Shown here: positions 4,206 through 41,547 of the stretch, piece after piece
Layout of the letters: the number at the start of each line of letters is the position of its first letter
Numbering within the stretch: the first letter of the stretch is position 1
IMG/VR virus record: IMGVR_UViG_3300024339_000032
Coordinates: 1-46,009 of that record
DNA length: 46,009 nt
Source of the DNA: a virus
Strand: one strand, 5' to 3'
Notes under the pieces: model-generated
What the model saw: the letters and a program-made list of their open reading frames with translations, nothing else
Database searches by the model: none
Told to the model about the DNA's origin: nothing
Translations under genes and position numbers: made by a program

Positions 4206-4240
4206 AAAAGGAATGATGAACCAATCACCATTCCCTTTCT
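4206..4240 (+). promoter_or_regulatory. 5' leader hairpin of cassette 1
   Basis: GGAATG (4210-4215) pairs with CATTCC (4229-4234), flanked by A-rich and CTTTCT arms that extend the stem with one mismatch. It is followed by the conserved box CTTTCTAACATAACAATA and GGGAGTATTATC before ATG 4266. The arms differ from those of the other cassettes but still pair. Confidence 0.7.
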
Positions 4241-4265
4241 AACATAACAATACGGGAGTATTATC

Positions 4266-5576
4266 ATGCATACATCTATTTATAACGGCCTCAACTTTTA
4301 CGTTTATCTTATTACTGATCTCAATCCTATAGGAACAGAGATGTATTATATTGGGTCATCACATCGTAAAGAGCTACAAGAGAATAACATAAATCCAGAA
4401 CTAGATACTTATTTTGGGTCTTCTTCTGTTAAACATTTTAGAGCTCTTCAAAAATCCAAATCACCTCAATTAGAACGCATTATTATTAAAACATTTTCTT
4501 CTAAGAAAAGATGTTTAGATTATGAGGAGAAGATACAAAGAGATCATGATGCCGCTTCCAATCCTTTATTCTACAACAAATGTTATGCTAATCGTGGATT
4601 CTCAACAACTGCTGAATCGCAACTGAAAACAGTAAAAACAAAACTCACTAATGTGGATGAGAATGGATTAAATGTATTTGAAAGAGCTATCCTTAAATCT
4701 AACACAACGAGATTAAAAGATATAGATAGTAACGGATTGAACTCTTATCAAAGAGTTGGAGTTAAAGCAAAAGAAACTAGATTAAATGATATCGATGATG
4801 ATGGATTAAACTCTTATCAAAGAAGTGCATTTAAAGTAAAAGAAACTAAATTAAATGACATCGATGATGACGGATTGAATACAAATCAAAGAAGTGCATT
4901 TAAAGTAAAAGAAACTAGATTAAATGATATCAACGATGGATTGAACTCTTATCAAAGAGCTGGTGCTAAAACTTGTGCATCTCGATTAAATAATATAGAT
5001 GATGATGGATTAAATTCATACCAAAGAAGTGTATTTAAAATAAGTGAAACTAAATTAAATAATATAGATGATAATGGATTGAATTCTTATGAACGAGGTG
5101 TTATTAAAACTAAATACACTAAATTAAATGATATAGACGATAGTGGATTGAATTCTCATGAACGAGGTGCTATTAAAACTAAATACACTAAATTAAATGA
5201 TATAGACGATAGTGGATTGAATTCTCATGAACGAGGTGCTATTAAACACATCAAAACTGTAAATAATGTAAAATGGAAAAATACTACCGGAAAAGACGCT
5301 GCACAGAAGAGAAGTAAAACGTTATGTGGTCACAAGTGTTACGGATTTAAAGGAGTGGAGGTTGTTCACACTCCTAAAGCACTCGCTGCTGCTATTAAAA
5401 AACATTACGGATGTAGTTTGAGCTCATCTCGTATTCATGAATTAGCTAAAAGTAATTTCAAAACAATCATCACGAGAAGAGGGAATAGTCCATTTCTCCA
5501 GTCCCTAGAAGATGATCCTACTGGTAAATCATATCACGATTTAGGGTTTTATTATTACGAAGATGTTAAATTATGA
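4266..5576 (+). CDS. GIY-YIG homing endonuclease with nine 23-residue repeats (cassette 1)
   Basis: The protein has 436 residues. Residues 11-30 contain YVYL...YYIG, the GIY-YIG core; R34, E87 and N104 (LFYN) fit the catalytic positions of I-TevI. Residues 125-330 hold nine repeats of 23 residues with consensus TKLNDIDDDGLNSYQRxxxK; the fifth lacks one residue. Residues about 335-350 carry one WKNTTGKDAAQKR unit of the cassette 2 repeat type. The C-terminal 80 residues (YGFKGV...ALAAAIKKHYG..LSSSRI...NFKTIIT) resemble the helix-turn-helix DNA-binding end of I-TevI-like enzymes, ending DLGFYYYEDV. The gene opposes all its neighbours and overlaps the next minus gene's stop by 6 nt. It should cut an intact allele and spread the cassette. 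Confidence 0.88.
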   Translation: MHTSIYNGLNFYVYLITDLNPIGTEMYYIGSSHRKELQENNINPELDTYFGSSSVKHFRALQKSKSPQLERIIIKTFSSKKRCLDYEEKIQRDHDAASNPLFYNKCYANRGFSTTAESQLKTVKTKLTNVDENGLNVFERAILKSNTTRLKDIDSNGLNSYQRVGVKAKETRLNDIDDDGLNSYQRSAFKVKETKLNDIDDDGLNTNQRSAFKVKETRLNDINDGLNSYQRAGAKTCASRLNNIDDDGLNSYQRSVFKISETKLNNIDDNGLNSYERGVIKTKYTKLNDIDDSGLNSHERGAIKTKYTKLNDIDDSGLNSHERGAIKHIKTVNNVKWKNTTGKDAAQKRSKTLCGHKCYGFKGVEVVHTPKALAAAIKKHYGCSLSSSRIHELAKSNFKTIITRRGNSPFLQSLEDDPTGKSYHDLGFYYYEDVKL

Positions 5577-14936: not shown

Positions 14937-14972
14937 AAAAGGATTAATGATTCGAACATTAATCCCTTTCTA
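14937..14972 (+). promoter_or_regulatory. 5' leader hairpin of cassette 2
   Basis: GGATTAATG (14941-14949) pairs perfectly with CATTAATCC (14957-14965) around a 7-nt loop. The conserved box CTTTCTAACACAACAATA and AAGGACG follow before ATG 14997. Confidence 0.75.
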
Positions 14973-14996
14973 ACACAACAATAAGGACGTATTGCA

Positions 14997-15881
14997 ATGT
15001 ATACATCTATTTATAGCGGCCCTAACTTTTATGTTTACTTAATCACTGACCTCAATCCTATAGGAACAGAGAAGTATTATATTGGTTCCTCTTATCGTAA
15101 AGAATTACAAGAAAATAACATTAATCCTGAAGAGGATACTTATTACGGATCATCCTCTGTTGAGCATTTTAAGATCCTTCAAAAAACCCAATCATCTCAA
15201 TTAGAACGTGTAATAATTGAAACATTTGATAACATCAAAGAATGTTTAGATTATGAGGAGAATTTACAACGAGAACACAAAGCAGCTATTAATCCTTTAT
15301 TCTACAACAAAGGATATGCTAATAAAGGATTTGCCCCATCATTTAATTCAAACGCTAAACACATTGAAACTATTACTGATCCTGAATGGAAAGCAACTAC
15401 AGGAAAAAAACAATCAGCTAAAAGATTAGAAACTATTACTGATCCTGAATGGAAAGCAACTACAGGAAAAAAACAATCAGCTAAAATGATAAACACCAGA
15501 AACGATCCTGAGTGGAAAGCAACTACAGGAAAGGATAGTACCGCTAAACACATTGAAACTATTACTGATCCTGAATGGAAAGCGACTATCGGGAAGGATA
15601 AGATACGAAAACATGTAGAGACAAGACACGGTTACAAATTTTACGGGTTCAAGGGAGTTGGAGAATTCCACTCAGCTCAAGCTCTAGTAAACGCTATTAA
15701 AGAGATACACACTTACAGTGTACTAGCGAGAACTATCCGAAGATTGTGTAAACAAGATTTTAATGCTGTAATCAGTAAAGGCAGCATCAATCGAAGTTTA
15801 TTCCTTCAAAACCTCCCCAATAATCCTATAAATAAGACTTGGAAAAGTTTAGGATTTTATTATTATGAAATAGCTAATTAA
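14997..15881 (+). CDS. GIY-YIG homing endonuclease between the uvsX halves (cassette 2)
   Basis: The protein has 294 residues. The GIY-YIG core is at 11-30 (YVYL, YYIG), with R34, E87 and N104 as in cassette 1. Instead of the 23-residue repeats it has four 21-residue repeats (tryptophans at 131, 152, 173 and 194) with consensus ETITDPEWKATTGKKQSAK, somewhat like the short NUMOD3-type DNA-contact motifs. The C terminus (FYGFKGVGEFHSAQALVNAI...) is the shared helix-turn-helix-like module ending LGFYYYEIAN. It sits in the break between the two split-intein halves of uvsX, in the opposite direction. It should cut uvsX alleles lacking the break. Confidence 0.88.
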   Translation: MYTSIYSGPNFYVYLITDLNPIGTEKYYIGSSYRKELQENNINPEEDTYYGSSSVEHFKILQKTQSSQLERVIIETFDNIKECLDYEENLQREHKAAINPLFYNKGYANKGFAPSFNSNAKHIETITDPEWKATTGKKQSAKRLETITDPEWKATTGKKQSAKMINTRNDPEWKATTGKDSTAKHIETITDPEWKATIGKDKIRKHVETRHGYKFYGFKGVGEFHSAQALVNAIKEIHTYSVLARTIRRLCKQDFNAVISKGSINRSLFLQNLPNNPINKTWKSLGFYYYEIAN

Positions 15882-19038: not shown

Positions 19039-19075
19039 AAAAAGGATTAATGTTCTTAGCATCAATCCCTTTCTA
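19039..19075 (+). promoter_or_regulatory. 5' leader hairpin of cassette 3
   Basis: GGATTAATG (19044-19052) pairs with CATCAATCC (19060-19068) with one A-C mismatch. CTTTCTAACACAACAATA and CTGGAGTATTATC follow, then ATG 19100. Confidence 0.68.
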
Positions 19076-19099
19076 ACACAACAATACTGGAGTATTATC

Positions 19100-20398
19100 A
19101 TGTATACATCTATTTATAGCGGCCCCAACTTTTACGTTTATCTTATTACTGATCTCAATCCTATAGGAACAGAGAAGTATTATATTGGTTCCTCAACACG
19201 TAAAGAACTCATTGAGAAAAATATTAATCCTGAAGAGGATACTTACTTTGGATCTTCTACCGTTGAGCATTTCAAGATCCTTCAAAAAAATCAATCCCCT
19301 CAATTAGAACGCATTATCGTTAAAACATTTTCGTTTAAGAAAGATTGTTTAGATTACGAGGAGAAGTTACAAAGAGAATATGAGGCAGCTTCAAATCCTT
19401 TATTCTATAATCTATCGTATGCTAACTCGTTTATGAATTCAGTAGAAAGTATTAATAAGGGACTCGAAACTAAAAGAAATAATATTGATGATAATGGGTT
19501 AAATGAATTTAACAGAACTAGCTTGAAGATATCCAAACACCATGAAGATGTAAATTGGGTTAATGATGTGTGGAAACCAGCATGCATCCAGATAGGTAAG
19601 AGTAACAGCAAGTATCACAATAACCCTGATTGGAAATCTACAGTGTGGGTAGCAGCTGTAGATAAAATTAAATCACATTACAACGATCCTGATTGGATTG
19701 ATAATGTTAAAATACCATCAACTAAACGGATGATTGAGTCTAAACTAAACAACATAGACGAAGATGGTTTGAATACATTTCAGAGGGTTGGTATTAAAGC
19801 ATCTAATACGAAACTAAATGATATAGACGAAAATGGTTTGAATACGTTTCAGAGAGTTGGTGTTAAAATGCTTAATACTAAATTGAATGATATAGACGAA
19901 AATGGTTTGAATGCTTGTATCCGAAACACAAGAAAAGGAAATGAGACTAAATTAAATGATGTAGATGTAAATGGTTTGAATACGTTTCAGAGAGTTGGTA
20001 TCAAAACCCTCAACACTAGATTAGATGATATAGATGAAAATGGTTTAAATTCGTTTAAGAGAGCTGGTATTAAAATGCTTAGCACAAAATTAAACGATGT
20101 GGATGATACTGGTTTAAATTCATTTGAGAGAGCTCATAAAAAATCAACCAAAACTAAAGGATTTAGATATAGTAACATATGTCATATTGAGTTAGGGTGT
20201 TTCAGAACTGGAGTATTAATGGCTGATCAATTACCACACTTATCACCATCTGTGATCATAAGATTAGCACGGACAAATTTCAACCAAGTGATAACCAAAT
20301 TATCTTATCTTCGTAACAACTACCTTCAATATTTAGGAACAGAGGATGATATTGTTGGTTTGACGTGGAAAGATCTAGGGTTCTATCTAGACAGTTAA
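19100..20398 (+). CDS. GIY-YIG homing endonuclease with mixed repeat array (cassette 3)
   Basis: The protein has 432 residues with the GIY-YIG domain at 11-104 as in cassettes 1 and 2. Residue 124 starts one 23-residue LNDID-type repeat. Next come three units centred on NW/DW (VNWVNDVWKP, NPDWKSTVWVAA, DPDWIDNVKIP; 150-205) related to the cassette 2 type, then six more 23-residue repeats from 214 to about 350. The C terminus (GCFRTGVLMADQLPHLSPSVIIRLARTNF...) is the shared DNA-binding module. It lies between gp43 and the 20395-20781 gene and overlaps the latter's stop by 4 nt. It shows that the two repeat types combine in one protein. Confidence 0.88.
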   Translation: MYTSIYSGPNFYVYLITDLNPIGTEKYYIGSSTRKELIEKNINPEEDTYFGSSTVEHFKILQKNQSPQLERIIVKTFSFKKDCLDYEEKLQREYEAASNPLFYNLSYANSFMNSVESINKGLETKRNNIDDNGLNEFNRTSLKISKHHEDVNWVNDVWKPACIQIGKSNSKYHNNPDWKSTVWVAAVDKIKSHYNDPDWIDNVKIPSTKRMIESKLNNIDEDGLNTFQRVGIKASNTKLNDIDENGLNTFQRVGVKMLNTKLNDIDENGLNACIRNTRKGNETKLNDVDVNGLNTFQRVGIKTLNTRLDDIDENGLNSFKRAGIKMLSTKLNDVDDTGLNSFERAHKKSTKTKGFRYSNICHIELGCFRTGVLMADQLPHLSPSVIIRLARTNFNQVITKLSYLRNNYLQYLGTEDDIVGLTWKDLGFYLDS

Positions 20399-27234: not shown

Positions 27235-28348
27235 ATGTATACATCTATTTATAGTGGCCTCAACTTTTACGTCTACCTCATTACTGATCTCGATCCTATA
27301 GGAACTGAAAAGTATTATATCGGCTCAGCTACTCGAAAAACATTAAAATAATATAGATCCTGAAGAGGATACTTATTATGGATCATCAACAGTTGAACAT
27401 TTTAACACCCTCCAAAAAACTCGTTCACCTCAATTAGAGCGTGTTATCATTAAAACGTTTTCCTCTAAGAAAGAGTGTCTCGATTATGAAGAGAAGTTAC
27501 AAAGGGAGCACGAAGCTGCTTCCAATCCTTTATTCTACAATCTAGCGTATGCTAACGGGGGACATCTAACGACTGTTGAATCAACATTAAAAATGGTAGA
27601 GACTAGGTCAAATAATATAGATTCAACAACTGGTTTAAATTCGTTTCAAATTGGGAGCATCAAAGCGCAAAAAACGATGTTGAATGATATCGATTTGAAG
27701 ACTGGTTTAAACGTTATTGAGCGAACGGCTATCAAAGTTAATAAAACAAAGTCGATTATAAATCCAACTACTGGATTAAACATTCACCAAAGTGTAGCTA
27801 TCCAAGCTGATAAAACGAAGTTGATTGTAGATTCATCAACTAGGTTAAACATTTACCAAAGTGCTGCCATCAAAGGAGCGAAAACAAAATCAATTGTAGA
27901 TCCATCAACTAATTTAAACATCCATCAAAGTGTAGCGATCAAAGTTAATAAAACGAAGTCAATTATAGACCCATCAACTAGTTTAAACCTCCATCAAAGT
28001 GCTGCCATTAAAGCAACGAAAACTAAAAATGATCCTAACTGGAAAAATACTATCGGAAAAGAGTCTTCACAGAAGCGATTCAAAACTATGTATAACCACC
28101 AACGTTACGGATTTAATAATTTAGGGCAATTTAACACTGCACCAGCATTAGTTAAAGCTATTAAAAGGTGTTACGGATATAGCCCATCCACATCTAGTAT
28201 TCAGATACTCAAGAAAACTAATTTCAAAACAACAATCACAAAAGGATCTTTCGCTAGAAGCCAATTCCTTCAATCATTACCAGAGAACCCTGTAGGTAAA
28301 TCATACTATGATTTGGGATTCTATTACTACGAAGATGTTAAATCTTAA
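27235..28348 (+). pseudogene. Frameshifted GIY-YIG homing endonuclease (cassette 4)
   Basis: ATG 27235 begins MYTSIYSGLNFYVYLITD like the others, but 5 nt are missing in the region matching RKELQENN, and the frame stops at 27349-27351 after 38 codons. The other frame resumes at once (NNIDPEEDTYYGSSTVEHF...) and runs to 28348. The rest is intact: about six repeats of 23-24 residues of a variant type (KTKSIVDPSTNLNIHQSVAIK) and the shared C-terminal module ending DLGFYYYEDV. Active enzyme should not form without frameshifting; an internal start at 27593 would give repeats and DNA-binding end only, a possible DNA-binding product. It lies between gp55 and uvsW and overlaps the uvsW stop by 11 nt. 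Confidence 0.88.
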
Positions 28349-33349: not shown

Positions 33350-33377
33350 TAACACAACAATAAGGATAGTTATTATC

Positions 33378-34291
33378 ATGCATACATCTATTTATAATGG
33401 TTTCAACTTTTATGTTTATTTAATAACTAATCTAAATCCTATAGGAACAGAGAAGTATTACATTGGTTCATCATATCGTAAAAAGCTTCAAGATAACAAC
33501 ATTGATCCAGAAGAGGATAATTATTATGGATCCTCTTCAGTCCCCTATCTCAGAGAGCTTCAAGATAATCACTCAATCCAATTAGAACGAATCATCATTA
33601 AAACGTTTTCGTCTAAGAAAGAGTGTGTCGATTATGAGGAACAACTACAAAGAGAATACGAAGCAGCTTCCAATCCTTTATTTTACAATCTGTCATACGC
33701 TAATGGTAAATTTATATCTGATTCAGAGACAGCTAGAAAATCAGCAAACACAAAATTGAATAACATTGATGTGAATGGACTCAACACTCATCAGAGAGTA
33801 ACTGAAATCAGATTAAATGATATCGATGAGAGTGGTTTAAATTCATATCAGAGAGCTAACAAGAAAGCTAACATTACACGAAGAGGTGATATTGATAAGG
33901 TAATTGGATTCAACAAGGATCCTCTCAGGGACGGTTTAGATGGAGGAACAAAATTAATGGAGATCAAACATCCGCAAAAGAATCTCCCGGAATTGATTGG
34001 GAGAGAGGTTCTAATTTAAAGGGAATTAAACATCCTACCTTTAAAGGATATTATTGTTTCAGAGATGTTATTAAAACCACATCAGCGTTAGATATGGTTA
34101 ATTATATTCAAGAGATGTATCAAGTATCAATATCTGACACATCCATTAAATCATACTGTAAACGTGATATACTAATCAATGATAAGTCATATCAACGAAA
34201 TAAACTCCTACAACAACTAGGATCGATAGATGATGTTGTGGGATTAACTAGCACTAGTCTTGGGTTTCATTTTGAAAGTTATAATCATTGA
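33378..34291 (+). pseudogene. Frameshifted GIY-YIG homing endonuclease (cassette 5)
   Basis: The first frame (33378-34019) has the GIY-YIG domain (MHTSIYNGFNFYVYL...YYIGSS), catalytic-type residues and two or three LNDID repeats, then runs into unrelated sequence. A net -1 (or +2) shift near 33890-33905 restores a frame reading NWIQQGSSQGRF...KGIKHPTFKGYYCF...NKLLQQLGS...LGFHFESYNH to 34291, the usual C-terminal module. So a complete gene was present and broke once. The nuclease domain could still be made without its DNA-binding end. It lies between the PAPS-reductase-like and ParB-like genes and overlaps the former by 38 nt. Confidence 0.85.
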
Positions 34292-35543
34292 CCAACTTAA
34301 CTAATCTATCAAAATCAACCTGAACCCCTTTTCTCACAGCGACTTTAGTTCCAGCTTCAACATCATCAATCCAATCACGAATATTCTTATTCTGAGCAAA
34401 TGATAAACTCTTGCATATGAAGTCAAGTTTTAGAATTGTCATTGACATTCTAGCCCAACTAGGAGCTGATTTATCTCCAAGTGATTTGCCTTCAATGATA
34501 TCCGGAATATCATCAAATGGATACCCATTCCTCCCCCACCATTCAATGAAAACAGCAAACTTCCTCATATACTGAGCAGATGTCACTTTAGGAAGAGTTT
34601 TTAACATATATAATGTATAATCTTTCCATGACGGCATAGCTTCAGGTAATCCAGTACCTCTATAATACCCTAACGCTTTACTTCTAGGATTCTTAGCTCC
34701 GAAATTTGCTCCCTGCACTCTATTAACAGTTCGATTCCAAGTCTCTGGTTCGATTGCATGAAACTGATCCAGTCCTTGTTTCTGATCATCCCCATACGGT
34801 TGACATATTCTCATCTCATGGATACTTTTACCATTAAGATACATATGATCATATAATTTATTATACGATAAATCATTCTTACCAATATATCGCCAAACAT
34901 CTTCCGTCCGCCAATCATATATCGGATATCCATTATAAGTATTTGGATTAACTTTAGTAGTATAATGAACACCTTTATATCTTGACGCTCGTTCTCCTGT
35001 AACCGTTCGGAATCGATTGAGACTCTCATCTGATCTAATTCCAACTAGATTTATTAATGTTCCTCCCAACTTATCATTGAAATATCGTGATAACAAAGGA
35101 GCAAACTCCTCAAACTCCATTCGATCTCTCCAAAAATCAAACTCATGATTATCTATATTAATTACATAAGATTCAGGGGGCATAGGACGAATCCAATGCT
35201 CTTCATCTTCAGGATCCCATGGAGTCCAATAAGGCTCATGTACACTTGTTCCATTTCGAAGGTTTAAAGGTAAACAAATCCAATATGGAATTACATTAGG
35301 AAGCTCAAGAATCTCTTTAATATGAACATCTGTCATCTTATAATTACCTTCAAGATCTATACAATATACATGAAGAGGTCCTATCCCCATCTCTTCTGCT
35401 ACCTCAAGAGCAAGGTGCGTCATAACAGTTGAGTCTTTACCTCCAGAGAATGCAACAGATACGTGATCAAATTCATCGAACATGTATTCCAATCGTTTCT
35501 TAGCGGCTACGTATACGTCATCTGTTTTATAATGTTTAGGCAT
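34254..35543 (-). CDS. PAPS-reductase-like protein, IbrA type (DUF3440)
   Basis: I start at ATG 35543 (MPKHYKTDDVYVAAKKRLEYMFDEFD, 429 residues), which fits the IbrA N terminus better than the frame starting 12 codons earlier. VSVAFSGGKDSTVM (about 28-41) is the PP-loop of the PAPS reductase/ATP pyrophosphatase family; VYCIDLEGNYKMT, VGIRSDESLNRF and YPIYDWRTEDVWRYI follow the usual order. The C-terminal part (PSWARMSMTILKLDFICKSLSF) matches the DUF3440 tail. The PP-loop activates a substrate with ATP, but I see no cysteine redox motif that would prove PAPS reduction. Probably works with the ParB-like gene downstream. No clear promoter or ribosome site. Confidence 0.82.
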   Translation of the reverse strand: MPKHYKTDDVYVAAKKRLEYMFDEFDHVSVAFSGGKDSTVMTHLALEVAEEMGIGPLHVYCIDLEGNYKMTDVHIKEILELPNVIPYWICLPLNLRNGTSVHEPYWTPWDPEDEEHWIRPMPPESYVINIDNHEFDFWRDRMEFEEFAPLLSRYFNDKLGGTLINLVGIRSDESLNRFRTVTGERASRYKGVHYTTKVNPNTYNGYPIYDWRTEDVWRYIGKNDLSYNKLYDHMYLNGKSIHEMRICQPYGDDQKQGLDQFHAIEPETWNRTVNRVQGANFGAKNPRSKALGYYRGTGLPEAMPSWKDYTLYMLKTLPKVTSAQYMRKFAVFIEWWGRNGYPFDDIPDIIEGKSLGDKSAPSWARMSMTILKLDFICKSLSFAQNKNIRDWIDDVEAGTKVAVRKGVQVDFDRLVKLVNDYNFQNETQD

Positions 35544-35741
35544 TATATAAGTATACAATATAAATTTAAAGATGTTCATGATTAATCATTTCAAAATTCC
35601 AAAATTTCCGTATTTTCTGGAAAAAAGGCTATATAACCCCTTATAAACACAGGGGCATTTTTCGGTGATTTACGCGTCTGCAGTGATAGTACCTATTTTA
35701 CACTAAAAATCAACGTTTTCGATGATTTACCAGAATACAGG
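35544..35741. other. Short non-coding gap with one hairpin
   Basis: No convincing ORF. CCCCT (35637-35641) pairs with AGGGG (35651-35655), followed on the plus strand by CATTTTTC, a weak terminator candidate. The rest is AT-rich without other structure I can support. Confidence 0.35.
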
Positions 35742-36979: not shown

Positions 36980-38092
36980 ATGAATGACATTCAACAACAA
37001 TTCCAAGATCAACATATTCAAATTAACGATAACAAATACTTCAAATGGTATTGTAATGTTATCAATAAGCGATTAACTGATCCTTGTATCGCTTCTAGAA
37101 TCGAGAAGCATCACATAATACCCAAGTGTATCGGAGGGATTAAGCTTGTTCATTTATCATTGAGAGAGCATTTTATAGTGCATTTATTATTAACAAAGTT
37201 CACTTCTGGTAAGTTTAAGTATCAGATGCATCACGCTTTATTGATATTTAAATCTGATAATAGATATCACTCATCAAGATTATATGAGAGTAATAAGATG
37301 CATCATATGAGATACAAAAGTTACAGAAATATAGAGTCTGATAAGTATGAGTGGTTTGATGAAAATCCTGGAGTGGGGTGGGTATTAGAGGGAACCAGTA
37401 AAAACATGAAGTGGTGGATCGATACTATCACGTTAAAGTCTACTATGATGAGAGAGTGTCCTAGTTCCACTCATATTAAATGGGGAACTACTCTTGGTAC
37501 TAATACTTACAATAATGGAGTTAGAGAGATTAAACGAAAAGAATCTCCTGGGGATGGGTGGATTAGAGGTTCTTTATCTAAGATGAAGGGTAATGATAAT
37601 TGGCAAGTGAGTGGTCATTATGAGCTTAATGGATTACATTTTCTACTTGCATCTGAGTTAGCTGATCACACAGGATTAACTGAAGGGACGTGTGTGAATA
37701 TATGTAAGAAAGAATTGGATGTTATCATTACTGAGATGCATTTAAACAGAAATATATATCTTCAAAACCTCTCTTACAATCCTATAGGGTTATCTTGGCG
37801 TGAAATAGGATTTAATTATACAGGAGATTTAGATAAGAAGACGCGTAAAGGAACTTCAGGTATCAACTCTAAAGGGATGTATTCATATCAAGATAAATGT
37901 TATCGAAGTGCTAAAGAGTTATCTGATGCAACTGGAATAGGAATTGGTACCATTAATAGACATAAGTATGCAAATTATGATGTATTAATAACTAAAAGAA
38001 ATATAAGTCAATCTAGTTGGCTTAAAGGGTTACCATTTGATCCTGAAGGTATGTCGTATAGAGAATTAGGATTAGAGTTTCATTCATATTAG
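36980..38092 (+). CDS. HNH homing endonuclease with duplicated C-terminal module
   Basis: I start at ATG 36980 (MNDIQQQFQDQHIQIND, 370 residues). The HNH domain spans about 35-75: EKHHIIPKCIGG then LSLREHFIVHLLL. NPGVGWVLEGTSKNMKWW and SPGDGWIRGS are NUMOD-like contacts. The C-terminal module seen in the GIY-YIG cassettes occurs twice: YELNGLHFLLASELADHTGL...YNPIGLSWREIGFNY and YSYQDKCYRSAKELSDATGI...FDPEGMSYRELGLEF. So GIY-YIG and HNH enzymes here share DNA-binding ends. It opposes the fibre-like gene and is followed by the structured region at 38093. Confidence 0.85.
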   Translation: MNDIQQQFQDQHIQINDNKYFKWYCNVINKRLTDPCIASRIEKHHIIPKCIGGIKLVHLSLREHFIVHLLLTKFTSGKFKYQMHHALLIFKSDNRYHSSRLYESNKMHHMRYKSYRNIESDKYEWFDENPGVGWVLEGTSKNMKWWIDTITLKSTMMRECPSSTHIKWGTTLGTNTYNNGVREIKRKESPGDGWIRGSLSKMKGNDNWQVSGHYELNGLHFLLASELADHTGLTEGTCVNICKKELDVIITEMHLNRNIYLQNLSYNPIGLSWREIGFNYTGDLDKKTRKGTSGINSKGMYSYQDKCYRSAKELSDATGIGIGTINRHKYANYDVLITKRNISQSSWLKGLPFDPEGMSYRELGLEFHSY

Positions 38093-38760
38093 AGAAGCGC
38101 AGCTCCCATAAGTACCTTAAAGAGATTTCTAATGAATAGGTACCTTAAAATCTCTTTAAGGGGGCTAATATATCTTTTAAAGTACTAATTAGTTTTGCTT
38201 CGCAAAACAGGAAGCTGCGCTTCCTATTCTTTTAAAGGATTTAAAGAGTAAAGGATTTAAAGAGTTTATTTAATTCAGGCGCAGTCCCCCCAACCAATAC
38301 CACTTAAATAAAAATAAAATTCAAATTCTTAATTAAATGGTATTGGTATATGAGGTTTGCCTTATTCCTCATTCATCAGAGATCATGTTAATTCATGACT
38401 GTTGATTGGATTCTACATAATACATTGGTTCGCCTTTAGAGCTAAATTCTCAGATATCTGAGCATGATACTTATACAGTGTAGTTGGTGTTTTATTATCC
38501 TGATAGGTTTGATAATTGAAGGGTTGATTAATAATTATTGATTCTTATTAAACTTTGGGAGTTTATCGTCTATACCCATGAACTCTTCTCCTGTTAGGGG
38601 TCCATCTATTATTGAGGCTGTTCATTCATCTAATGGTAGTGGGTATAGACTGAGCATTCGCGACTCGGATACCCTCTCATACAGTTGTGAAGGGATTACC
38701 ATAGGTTTATTAGTTGCTACCTACAAGCTTAATCGAATATTTGAATTATAATAGTATTGT
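38093..38760. other. Hairpin-rich non-coding region, candidate structured RNA
   Basis: No ORF here. Perfect inverted repeats follow one another: GAAGCGCAGCT (38094-38104) with AGCTGCGCTTC (38213-38223), enclosing a 14-bp stem (38115-38128 with 38148-38161) and GTTTTGC-TTC-GCAAAAC (38192-38208); ACCAATACCA (38293-38302) with TGGTATTGGT (38338-38347); CTCAGATATCTGAG (38449-38462); GTCTATACCCA (38568-38578) with TGGGTATAGAC (38640-38650); TAGGT/ACCTA near 38703-38722. A 16-bp unit is repeated in tandem at 38234-38265. This suggests a large folded RNA of about 0.6-0.7 kb; strand unknown. Both flanking genes are complete, so a group I intron in a coding gene is not supported. Confidence 0.55.
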
Positions 38761-38801
38761 ATCATGTAAAAATGTTTTTGTTCACTGCTATTTTATTTAA
38801 T

Positions 38802-38838
38802 GATAAATAATATCACACTAAATTAGTATGATATTAAA
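38802..38838 (+). promoter_or_regulatory. Late promoter and leader hairpin of the 79-residue gene
   Basis: GATAAATA at 38802-38809 is followed by AATATCA pairing with TGATATT (about 38808-38834), then AAAAAGAGGATATAATC and ATG 38853. Same plan as the endonuclease cassettes. Confidence 0.62.
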
Positions 38839-38852
38839 AAGAGGATATAATC

Positions 38853-39092
38853 ATGAAAAGAAGTGATAAAAAGAAAAGTGGGCCACGTAGAACTATTCAA
38901 GTTTGGGGCGTTGAGTTATACGATGGAACCAAAATAAATGCTGGAGATGAGACAGTAGATGGACGTAATATAGTCTCTGTATACAACTTAGGCGGTAAAG
39001 ATGGTGAGGGATATAAAATGGTCTTTGCTGACAACTCTGAGGAGTTTGTCTACACTAACCAAGTATCGATAGGCAACCCTCGGTTTAACTAA
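38853..39092 (+). CDS. Small protein on the plus strand, 79 residues
   Basis: The protein (MKRSDKKKSGPRRTIQVWGVELYDGTKINAGDE...) has a basic head and a beta-rich body with VWGVELYDG and YKMVFADNSEEFVYTNQV, suggestive of a small barrel. GAGG precedes the start and a late promoter is present. It is one of very few plus-strand genes that is not an endonuclease, and overlaps the stop of the convergent HNH gene by 8 nt. No family recognised. Confidence 0.62.
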   Translation: MKRSDKKKSGPRRTIQVWGVELYDGTKINAGDETVDGRNIVSVYNLGGKDGEGYKMVFADNSEEFVYTNQVSIGNPRFN

Positions 39093-40224
39093 TTACTGTA
39101 TCTTTAGATCGTGATTTCAAGTGTCCTAATTTGAAGTTTAGAGGTACTTCATCACCATCTTTAAAGTATACGTTTTGGATTCCGTTATTGTAACACTTCT
39201 TACCTTTTCTACGTGATACTCCAAATCGTCCTTTTATCATGTTAATAGGAGCATCCCCTTCATCAAAGTAATAAGTCTTCTCTCCATCGGTATAAGCTTT
39301 CTTACCTTTATTGCTTATTCCAACAACTCCAATGAAATTGTCGTTAATCTTATCTCCTCGCAATCTGTGAATTGATATATGATCATCAGGGTGAAGTGCT
39401 ATTAAATTTCTAGGGTGATTTATTTGCTCTTCAGTCCATCCACTATCTTTAGCAACTGTTTTGGGTGTTATGTGATGCACAGTGAACCCATTGGGAATGT
39501 TATACAAAGGGTTCATCTGTCTCCAATATTGAATTAAATTTCTTTTATAATCTGTTGAATGATATCCAAAGATGAATGGAGGTATTGTAGTAAACTCATT
39601 GTGTAATAATGAATATCGTTGTTTAAATATAACTAGACCTTTCTCATCGCCATGTCTATCGATATAACCATCTAATGACGATCCAAATGCTTTGTTACTT
39701 CTCATTATGTTATATCTCTTTAAACCCTCTACTTCCCCATATCTATCAATGTAACCATCTAATGATGATCCGAATGCTTTGTTACGGCAGGTAGTTTTGT
39801 ATTTTTCTAATCCAATGACATTACCATAATTTGATATTAACGATTCTAAAGAATTTTTATCAGAATTACACTTCTGGATATCTGATATCCGTAGGGTAGC
39901 GTATTCATTAGAGTGTCCTCTATTAATCCAATATCCTAATTGTAGATGACTTAATATCTTCTGATCATTGTACATTCCCATGTAACTGTATATCACGTTA
40001 TCTAGTTGTGTGGTAGATATACGGTTGTTGTTTAAATTATTTTTAATAATGTGTTCTAGATCTACATTAATATCAATAACAATACTATCACTCGAAGAAC
40101 GTTTCTTTGCTCTTGATCCGTTATTATTAATATGTTCTATTAATTCAGAAGGTGAATGGATGTTGATGTTTGTAACATCTTTACGTCTATTTGTAACGAT
40201 GAAGGGATAAATAGATTTATGCAT
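39085..40224 (-). CDS. HNH homing endonuclease with cassette-type leader
   Basis: The protein has 379 residues. It begins MHKSIY, like the GIY-YIG cassette proteins, although it lacks that domain. Residues about 140-205 have two copies of FGSSLDGYIDRxGxxxGLxxY. The HNH-type core is about 248-285: FTVHHITPKTVAK...HPRNLIALHPDDHISIHRL. The end carries two copies of a KxYxxGxxxxYFxxGDxxPxNxxxG motif, which is common in phage HNH enzymes. It alone on the minus strand has the conserved leader (late box, hairpin, TTCTAACACAACAATACTGGA). It stands just behind the gp23 terminator. Confidence 0.82.
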   Translation of the reverse strand: MHKSIYPFIVTNRRKDVTNINIHSPSELIEHINNNGSRAKKRSSSDSIVIDINVDLEHIIKNNLNNNRISTTQLDNVIYSYMGMYNDQKILSHLQLGYWINRGHSNEYATLRISDIQKCNSDKNSLESLISNYGNVIGLEKYKTTCRNKAFGSSLDGYIDRYGEVEGLKRYNIMRSNKAFGSSLDGYIDRHGDEKGLVIFKQRYSLLHNEFTTIPPFIFGYHSTDYKRNLIQYWRQMNPLYNIPNGFTVHHITPKTVAKDSGWTEEQINHPRNLIALHPDDHISIHRLRGDKINDNFIGVVGISNKGKKAYTDGEKTYYFDEGDAPINMIKGRFGVSRRKGKKCYNNGIQNVYFKDGDEVPLNFKLGHLKSRSKDTVIS

Positions 40225-40249
40225 GATAATATTCCAGTATTGTTGTGTT

Positions 40250-40305
40250 AGAAGAAGAAAGAGACTAGAGATCCCTTTCTTTTTTGCGTTATACGTTTAT
40301 TTATC
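40250..40305 (-). promoter_or_regulatory. Late promoter and leader hairpin of the HNH gene
   Basis: The minus strand has GATAAATA (40305-40298), then AGAAAG (40280-40275) pairing with CTTTCT (40261-40256), then the box TTCTAACACAACAATA found in the GIY-YIG cassettes. Confidence 0.72.
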
Positions 40306-40371: not shown

Positions 40372-41547
40372 TTATAAATTAGCTACCGAGAATTTACGGT
40401 AATAGCTGTTAGTTCCTGCACCTTCACCAGTCATAGGATTACTCAAAATTCCATAACGAGTCTTGAACCCGATTCTTGGAGCAAAGTCCTCTTCACCAGT
40501 TGATTTGTACATCTGAAGTGGAACATAAGGACAATAGAACAGACCTGCGTCCATTTCTGATGATCCTTTATATCCAACGATGACTTCATCAGCAGCAAGG
40601 TAAGGGTTAACAAACACTTTGTATTTTCCGCCTAAGACACCAGCAAACAAGCTCTGAGTCACGTCAGTGCTCATACCTTGTGAGACAACAGCAGAATCAG
40701 TAGCTAGATTAGCAGTCATATCAAGTACAGAAGCGACATCAGCTGAAACAACTAGGAAGTTACCTGCGCCTCGTCCAGTTTCACGAGCGATGATATTAGC
40801 TTCTTTATTGATTTGAGTGATGAGTGATTTGTATCTCTCTCCACCCCAACGAGCGCCTTTATTATCAGCGGTATCAGCAAGATCAAACGTTCCAGCAACT
40901 GTAGCGCCTGCAGCGCCTGCTTTAGCTTCTGAGCTTAGAAGATCCATAATCTCCCAGTTAGTTTCAGCGATAATCTCATTAGAAAGAATTGCAGACAATT
41001 CAGTCTCAGCATCTAGACCATGAATAACTTTAAGGTCATGAGCAATTTCATTTGAGTATTTAGCTTTAAGTGCACGAGTTTTAGCTTCAACAGAAGTTTT
41101 CTCGATTCCAAAGCTCATCTCGCTGAAGTTATTAGTTCCACCATTGAATCCACCTAAAGTCTCACCGTCAGCAGTAGTCATAGGACCAGAGTGAGCGGTA
41201 TTAGGTTTCTGACCAGGAGCAAATGCTTCTGTGCCTGCAGTGTTAGTGTAGTAGCTCTTCATATAGAATACTAGACCAGTAGGACCAGTCATAGGCTGTA
41301 CACCAACAGTCTCATAAGCGAGTAGTTGAGGAGTAGATCTACGAACTAAGCTGATAAGGATTGGATCCCAGTTAGATACATTGCCAGTAGTTACTGCATC
41401 TTCTTTAAGTTGTTTCTCTTGGTTCTCTAAGAGACGGATTGTGATATCACGCTGGGTAGCGTTCTTAATTTCTGGGAGATCAGCGTGCTCTAGAATTGGA
41501 GCCCATTTCTCTCTCAGCGATACTTCTTCTTGTTCAGTTAAAAACAT
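40372..41547 (-). CDS. 23: Major capsid protein gp23
   Basis: The protein has 391 residues (T4: 521). EKWAPILEHADLPEI, RLLENQEKQL, LVRRSTPQLLAYETVGVQPMTGPTGLVFYMKSYY match the T4 gp23 N-terminal region (KWKPLLEGEGLPEI, FENQEK, MVRRAIPNLIAFDICGVQPMNSPTGQVFALR). The likely gp21 cleavage site is after E49 (QLKE-DA), an LxE site, which would leave a mature protein of about 342 residues. It forms the hexamers of the head shell. GGAGAAACAAT precedes ATG 41547, and a strong terminator follows. Codon use is richer in GC than elsewhere, as expected for the most abundant protein. Confidence 0.97.
   Translation of the reverse strand: MFLTEQEEVSLREKWAPILEHADLPEIKNATQRDITIRLLENQEKQLKEDAVTTGNVSNWDPILISLVRRSTPQLLAYETVGVQPMTGPTGLVFYMKSYYTNTAGTEAFAPGQKPNTAHSGPMTTADGETLGGFNGGTNNFSEMSFGIEKTSVEAKTRALKAKYSNEIAHDLKVIHGLDAETELSAILSNEIIAETNWEIMDLLSSEAKAGAAGATVAGTFDLADTADNKGARWGGERYKSLITQINKEANIIARETGRGAGNFLVVSADVASVLDMTANLATDSAVVSQGMSTDVTQSLFAGVLGGKYKVFVNPYLAADEVIVGYKGSSEMDAGLFYCPYVPLQMYKSTGEEDFAPRIGFKTRYGILSNPMTGEGAGTNSYYRKFSVANL

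Follow-up and report, generated by a model that had tools for sequence, protein, structure and literature searches.

What occupies the 760-nt non-coding gap (38093-38852) that lies between convergent HNH-type genes, just 5' of a 79-aa gene, in the phage contig studied here, and does it belong to any known class of large RNA? The window (the whole stretch of DNA that was analysed, 46,009 nt) belongs to a phage of the T4 superfamily; this 46-kb contig has portal, prohead protease and major capsid Gp23 genes, the last at 40372-41547. The late-gene set also includes a phosphoadenosine phosphosulfate reductase-type protein (34254-35579; PHROG 2302). The gap is entered on the plus strand by a free-standing HNH homing endonuclease gene (36983-38092), which is outside the proposed RNA and converges on it; its protein matches phage homing endonucleases (PHROG 655, MobE-like), as expected by the earlier note, which took it for an ordinary homing enzyme. 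Across the gap are the 79-aa gene (38853-39092, plus strand, ATG at 38853) and a second HNH-type gene (39085-40224, minus strand), called from its own sequence with no profile matching. The 79-aa protein had no Pfam or PHROG match; its 15 relatives in other phage contigs, one of them cut off by a contig end, were 66-71% identical over most of their length, and their genes sit in varied neighbourhoods. Upstream of the 79-aa gene in the window are a GATAAATA motif and a 14-bp hairpin; the contigs with its relatives mostly have ORFs, not a large RNA, upstream of that gene.

Around the start codon, at least five endonuclease genes of the window have a near-identical stretch in common (4237-4283, 14968-15014, 19071-19117, 33371-33395 and 40207-40253), which we read as a single leader carried by different nucleases, namely SegE-like GIY-YIG genes and the HNH-type gene at 39085-40224; several of these starts are preceded by a GATAAATA-like late-promoter motif, then a hairpin. 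The SegE-like genes contain tandem repeats of 69 (or 63) bp, equal to units of 23 (or 21) residues that are variants of LNDIDENGLNTFQR (4594-5277, 19739-20152, 27701-28045, 15354-15658 and 33750-33875); repeat copy number varies between paralogues, and this may represent a modular DNA-binding region.

The stems that the earlier note had seen in the gap were in place. An outer stem pairs 38094-38107 with 38210-38223 (13 of 14 positions complementary) and encloses a perfect 14-bp stem (38115-38128/38148-38161) and a TTTTGC-TTC-GCAAAA hairpin, and the 16-bp tandem duplication was present at 38233-38264 (the run equally reads 38234-38265). The absence of an ORF was likewise borne out, with none reaching 60 aa from the end of the HNH stop codon (38092) to the ATG at 38853; codon-usage scoring of the gap gave no coding frame, stop codons were found in all of its frames, and its alignment with the homologue described below contained single-base gaps. 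A minus-strand frame beginning MVIPSQLYERVSESR, with one stop in about 58 codons, was considered as a protein-coding remnant and rejected, as it had no PHROG match, insignificant tblastn matches only, no codon signal and no frame conservation in the homologue. The segment GAAGCGCAGCTCCC was also considered as a dispersed repeat and rejected: its matches in viral contigs, at least 119, were all short chance ones except those in the same phage. Folding of the gap 38093-38852 exceeded that of random sequence (z = -3.9 for the plus and -8.1 for the minus strand, 20 shuffles each), which agrees with the earlier supposition of a folded RNA. The GC-hairpin segment 38093-38274 gave z of about -5 on either strand, and the segment 38275-38745 gave z = -1.5 (plus) and -2.8 (minus).

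We examined relatives of the interval. It is identical throughout in a second metagenome contig, IMGVR_3300025468_000030. The search for the 79-aa gene led to IMGVR_3300037805_000447 (hereafter L146), which holds a diverged copy of the core 38275-38745 at positions 1117-1592 (72.6% identity across 372 columns with E 2e-35; blastn with relaxed scoring among the fetched loci gave 67.6% across 537 columns at E 3e-52). The L146 copy is also non-coding and lies among different genes, with a short one (ending at 771) on one side and a DNA-methylase-like one (starting at 1730; the label was read from the sequence rather than from a profile) on the other; both flanking genes are on the plus strand, i.e., against the RNA, and no HNH gene was recognised directly beside the copy. 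Folding of the L146 core gave z = -1.3 (plus) and -2.3 (minus). A DNA-pattern search of viral contigs returned just the two known elements and one chance match, and that of genome contigs five chance matches; blastn against cultured phages and plasmids gave nothing convincing. Two covariance models built here, R1 and R2, found no new copy in 22 and 19 records, respectively, and R2 found nothing new in 764 bacterial genomes under strict filters and without a positive control. In other samples, contigs from near-identical phages end within the GC hairpin domain at 38098 (L005) and 38126 (L003), and another (L007) ends at about 40201, at the shared nuclease leader; these ends suggest that hairpins or repeats interrupted the assembly, or that strains vary there.

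The earlier note had named, beforehand, conservation of the stems in a relative as a check on the RNA, and the helices were indeed kept in L146 with compensatory changes. Helices were read by hand on the minus strand, and because only two independent sequences (n = 2) were available each compensatory change is a single comparison. The 15 helix segments contain 84 pairs aligned between the window and L146, of which 45 are the same in both, 5 differ at one base, 31 differ at both bases yet still pair, and 3 are non-canonical; the compensatory pairs number 23 once H14b, a variable hairpin with little sequence similarity, is left out. The conserved core (38275-38745, minus strand, about 475 nt) opens with H1 (38701-38724), GUAGGU/ACCUAU in the window and GCUACC/GGUAGU in L146, where 5 of 6 pairs are compensatory, followed by the invariant H2 (CCCU-UCA/UGA-G-AGGG, 38672-38694) and by H3 (38652-38666), GAGU/GCUC versus GAGC/GUUC, whose G.U pairs exist on the minus strand only. 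The long helix H4 (38569-38649), UCUAUACCCA/UGGGUAUAGA versus UGGUACACCA/UGGUGUAUCA in L146, is compensatory in 6 of 10 pairs and encloses H5 (38579-38624), UGAAC/GUUCA versus AAGAC/GUCUU, compensatory in 3 of 5 and with the invariant AGAUGGACCCCU inside. H7 (38526-38553) reads GUUUAAUAA/UUAUUAAUC versus GGUGAGAGG/CCACUCAUC, with 4 of 9 pairs compensatory and 2 mismatched, and H8 (38494-38516) is AUUAU/AUAAU with an inner CCU/AGG. H9 (38413-38483), CUACA/UGUAG versus CUGCU/AGUAG, encloses H10 (38449-38462), CUCAG/CUGAG versus CUUAU/AUAAG; H12 (38382-38399) is GUCAUG/CAUGAU versus GUCAUG/CAUGAC. The core closes with H13 (CCUC/GGGG, together with H14 in 38288-38355), for which the L146 counterpart is a GGGG run after GGUU, and with H14 (38347-38333/38307-38293), a variable hairpin whose helix is kept in L146 with a different inner sequence. 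The best-conserved part is the less conspicuous 38280-38745, which the earlier note had missed, along with the strand.

Shuffle controls on the pair of homologues gave stronger evidence than the folding scores of the gap. RNAalifold on the two-sequence alignment scored below 100 of 100 column shuffles on either strand (z = -8.6 minus, -4.9 plus), and a structural alignment made with a home-made structural aligner gave z = 7.7 (minus) and 2.5 (plus) against 15 shuffled alignments. The invariant minus-strand stretches AGAUGGACCCCU, GCUCUAAAGGCG, AAUCAACAGUCAUGAA and AUAAGGCAAACCUC lie between helices with paired letter changes, and the pattern of conserved columns is that of an RNA. The RNA is most likely on the minus strand, and the sequence support for this strand is good: the fair strand tests (the shuffle-controlled scores and the core folding z) all favour minus. 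The helices contain 12 G.U and no A.C minus-strand cells, a count that illustrates rather than proves the strand because the helices were chosen on minus. A structured RNA of the plus strand, whether the HNH transcript's 3' untranslated region or an independent RNA, would account for the conservation beyond shuffles seen there too (z = -4.9), for the better pairing of H2 on that strand, and for the plus orientation of the genes flanking the L146 copy; a few further pairs, in the H2 loop and at the termini of H9 and the helix surrounding H12, also fit plus better. We regard it as quite unlikely, as the minus strand scores far higher in every shuffle-controlled test, positions in H1, H3, H4, H9, H12 and H14 that are G.U on minus become A.C mismatches on plus, and both promoters described next are on minus.

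Upstream of H1 on the minus strand, at a distance of 31 nt in the window and 58 nt in L146, are candidate sigma70-type promoters with an extended -10: TGAACA-17-TG.TACAAT at 38756-38784 (9/12) and TTCACA-17-TG.TATAAT at L146 1659-1631 (11/12). None of 2000 shuffles of the 160-nt segment in L146 reached the score of the site there; for the window site, 3.2% of shuffles did. The proposed RNA would run from near 38749 to 38093, or stop before it, on this strand (about 655 nt); we placed its ends from where the promoter lies and from the HNH stop codon next to it; promoter and 3' domain positions give lengths of about 655 nt in the window and about 850 nt in L146. An AU-rich linker (38225-38278, minus), which carries the 16-bp tandem repeat and differs from that of L146, follows the core, and a 3' domain (38093-38223, minus) with a GC-rich closing stem of 14-15 bp (38094-38107/38210-38223) follows the linker and holds the 14-bp stem and GC-TTC-GC hairpin. 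L146 has a like 3' domain, closed by CGCGAAGCG/CGCUUCGCG or CGCGAAGCG/CGCTTCGCG (1033-1041 with 788-796 or 807-815). Both copies show the linker and then the GC-stem-closed domain 3' of the core, reaching the end of the convergent gene.

Such a position between convergent genes also fits a cis element, i.e., an attenuator, terminator array or antisense leader separating late minus-strand transcription from the plus-strand HNH and 79-aa genes. The GC-rich hairpins of 38093-38223 could stop both polymerases, and one terminator-like site for the HNH transcript, by consensus match only, is on the plus strand (AGGAAGC-TGC-GCTTCCT then ATTCTTTT, 38209-38225). This explanation appears unlikely, since a terminator would have no need of 475 nt of conserved branched structure and the core is kept in L146 despite different neighbours. 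The perfect inverted repeats in 38093-38223 might instead serve at the DNA level, for instance by forming cruciforms at an origin of replication or a site of recombination; we give this very little credence, as strand-asymmetric conserved pairing, G.U pairs within helices and a promoter all point to RNA. A conserved, structured, minus-strand RNA in this region is, in our judgment, highly probable from the compared sequences.

The adjoining HNH gene raises two further readings. Group II introns are on record from phages, at times between genes and at times together with homing endonucleases (PMC12350094), and the RNA could be a self-splicing or once-mobile group I or group II intron that lost its exons and left its endonuclease gene nearby. 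We consider this highly improbable: the group I and group II intron models gave no match even at E 10, with no D5/D6 or D1-D4 found; no minus-strand gene is interrupted; the RNA has a promoter of its own by sequence match; and the L146 copy has no recognised HNH gene beside it. The likeness to group II introns (RF00029, CL00102) is that of a large structured phage RNA sometimes associated with a homing endonuclease; in contrast, there are no exons, and the present RNA is intergenic in both phages. An RNA of the HEARO type, an option of the earlier note, shares with HEARO and the IscB/IsrB omega RNAs a position next to an HNH gene. The HEARO model gave no match even at E 10, however, and the RNA here is on the strand opposite the HNH gene, with no same-strand adjacent IscB/IsrB-type protein; the idea is unsupported because the neighbour is a free-standing homing endonuclease. 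The association of RNA and HNH gene is probably incidental: the two face each other from opposite strands, the RNA running towards the 3' end of that gene, and the L146 copy has no recognised HNH gene directly beside it.

Comparison with described families was made using cmscan against all 4227 families of Rfam 15, which gave nothing at gathering level in the window. The permissive scan of the window gave weak matches far below gathering, almost every one to a eukaryotic microRNA, snoRNA or comparable family, and that of L146 no match at all. ARAGORN found no tRNA genes in the window or L146. The GOLLD model (RF02032) had no match at E 5 in the two records, nor in cmscan; the ROOL model (RF03087) had no match in the two records or in cmscan, its search of the two records being the weaker test, as the ROOL control genomes were also silent in it. 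Of the earlier suggestion, the large folded phage RNA, possibly of a new class, stands, and the GOLLD, ROOL and HEARO identities do not. The conserved fold, with no Rfam match, therefore suggests that this large phage RNA, some 650-850 nt long, is so far undescribed.

We propose that host sigma70 RNA polymerase would start a minus-strand RNA near 38749, with the promoter recognised as a sequence match; that this RNA would fold into a core of about 475 nt with at least 12 helices, then the AU-rich linker, then the GC-stem-closed second domain; and that it would stop close to 38093, up against the convergent HNH gene's 3' end. During infection it may act in trans, as a folded scaffold or RNA-only particle. 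A fold kept in two neighbourhoods, a host-type promoter and the size argue for a trans-acting RNA; we infer its expression, exact ends and independence of protein. Phages keep few non-coding bases, so that 650-850 nt of conserved structure implies a worthwhile function, and to our knowledge only a few RNA classes of such size are known. A third independent class, in T4-like phages, would be a further system for asking about the roles of large phage RNAs, and the locus is a worked case of strand, promoter and covariation recovered from just two sequences.

GOLLD is phage-encoded, exceeds 600 nt and has a complex branched fold of unknown function, with a universally conserved domain at the 3' end and a variable one at the 5' end, and it forms a homo-oligomeric nanocage; ROOL, likewise from phages, is about 600 nt long and has a variable linker, no known protein partner and no known function; the solved examples, 659 and 833 nt long, assemble into cages made of RNA only (PMC12286853). 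The present RNA resembles GOLLD in size, branched fold and the pairing of one conserved with one variable domain in a phage, and differs in that its conserved domain is 5' and no tRNA genes are near. It resembles ROOL as a phage RNA of similar size with a variable linker, and differs in helix layout, as far as resolved, and in having no tRNA island, although ROOL is often near tRNA genes without this being a strict requirement. By analogy with these unrelated RNAs, a trans-acting scaffold or particle role is the likeliest mode of action, though one that we hold a little short of probable. More tentatively, and on balance rather doubtfully, the RNA could be a new class of rare ornate phage RNA that forms an RNA-only multimer, unrelated to GOLLD and ROOL in sequence and layout; if so, phages would have reached such particles at least three times.
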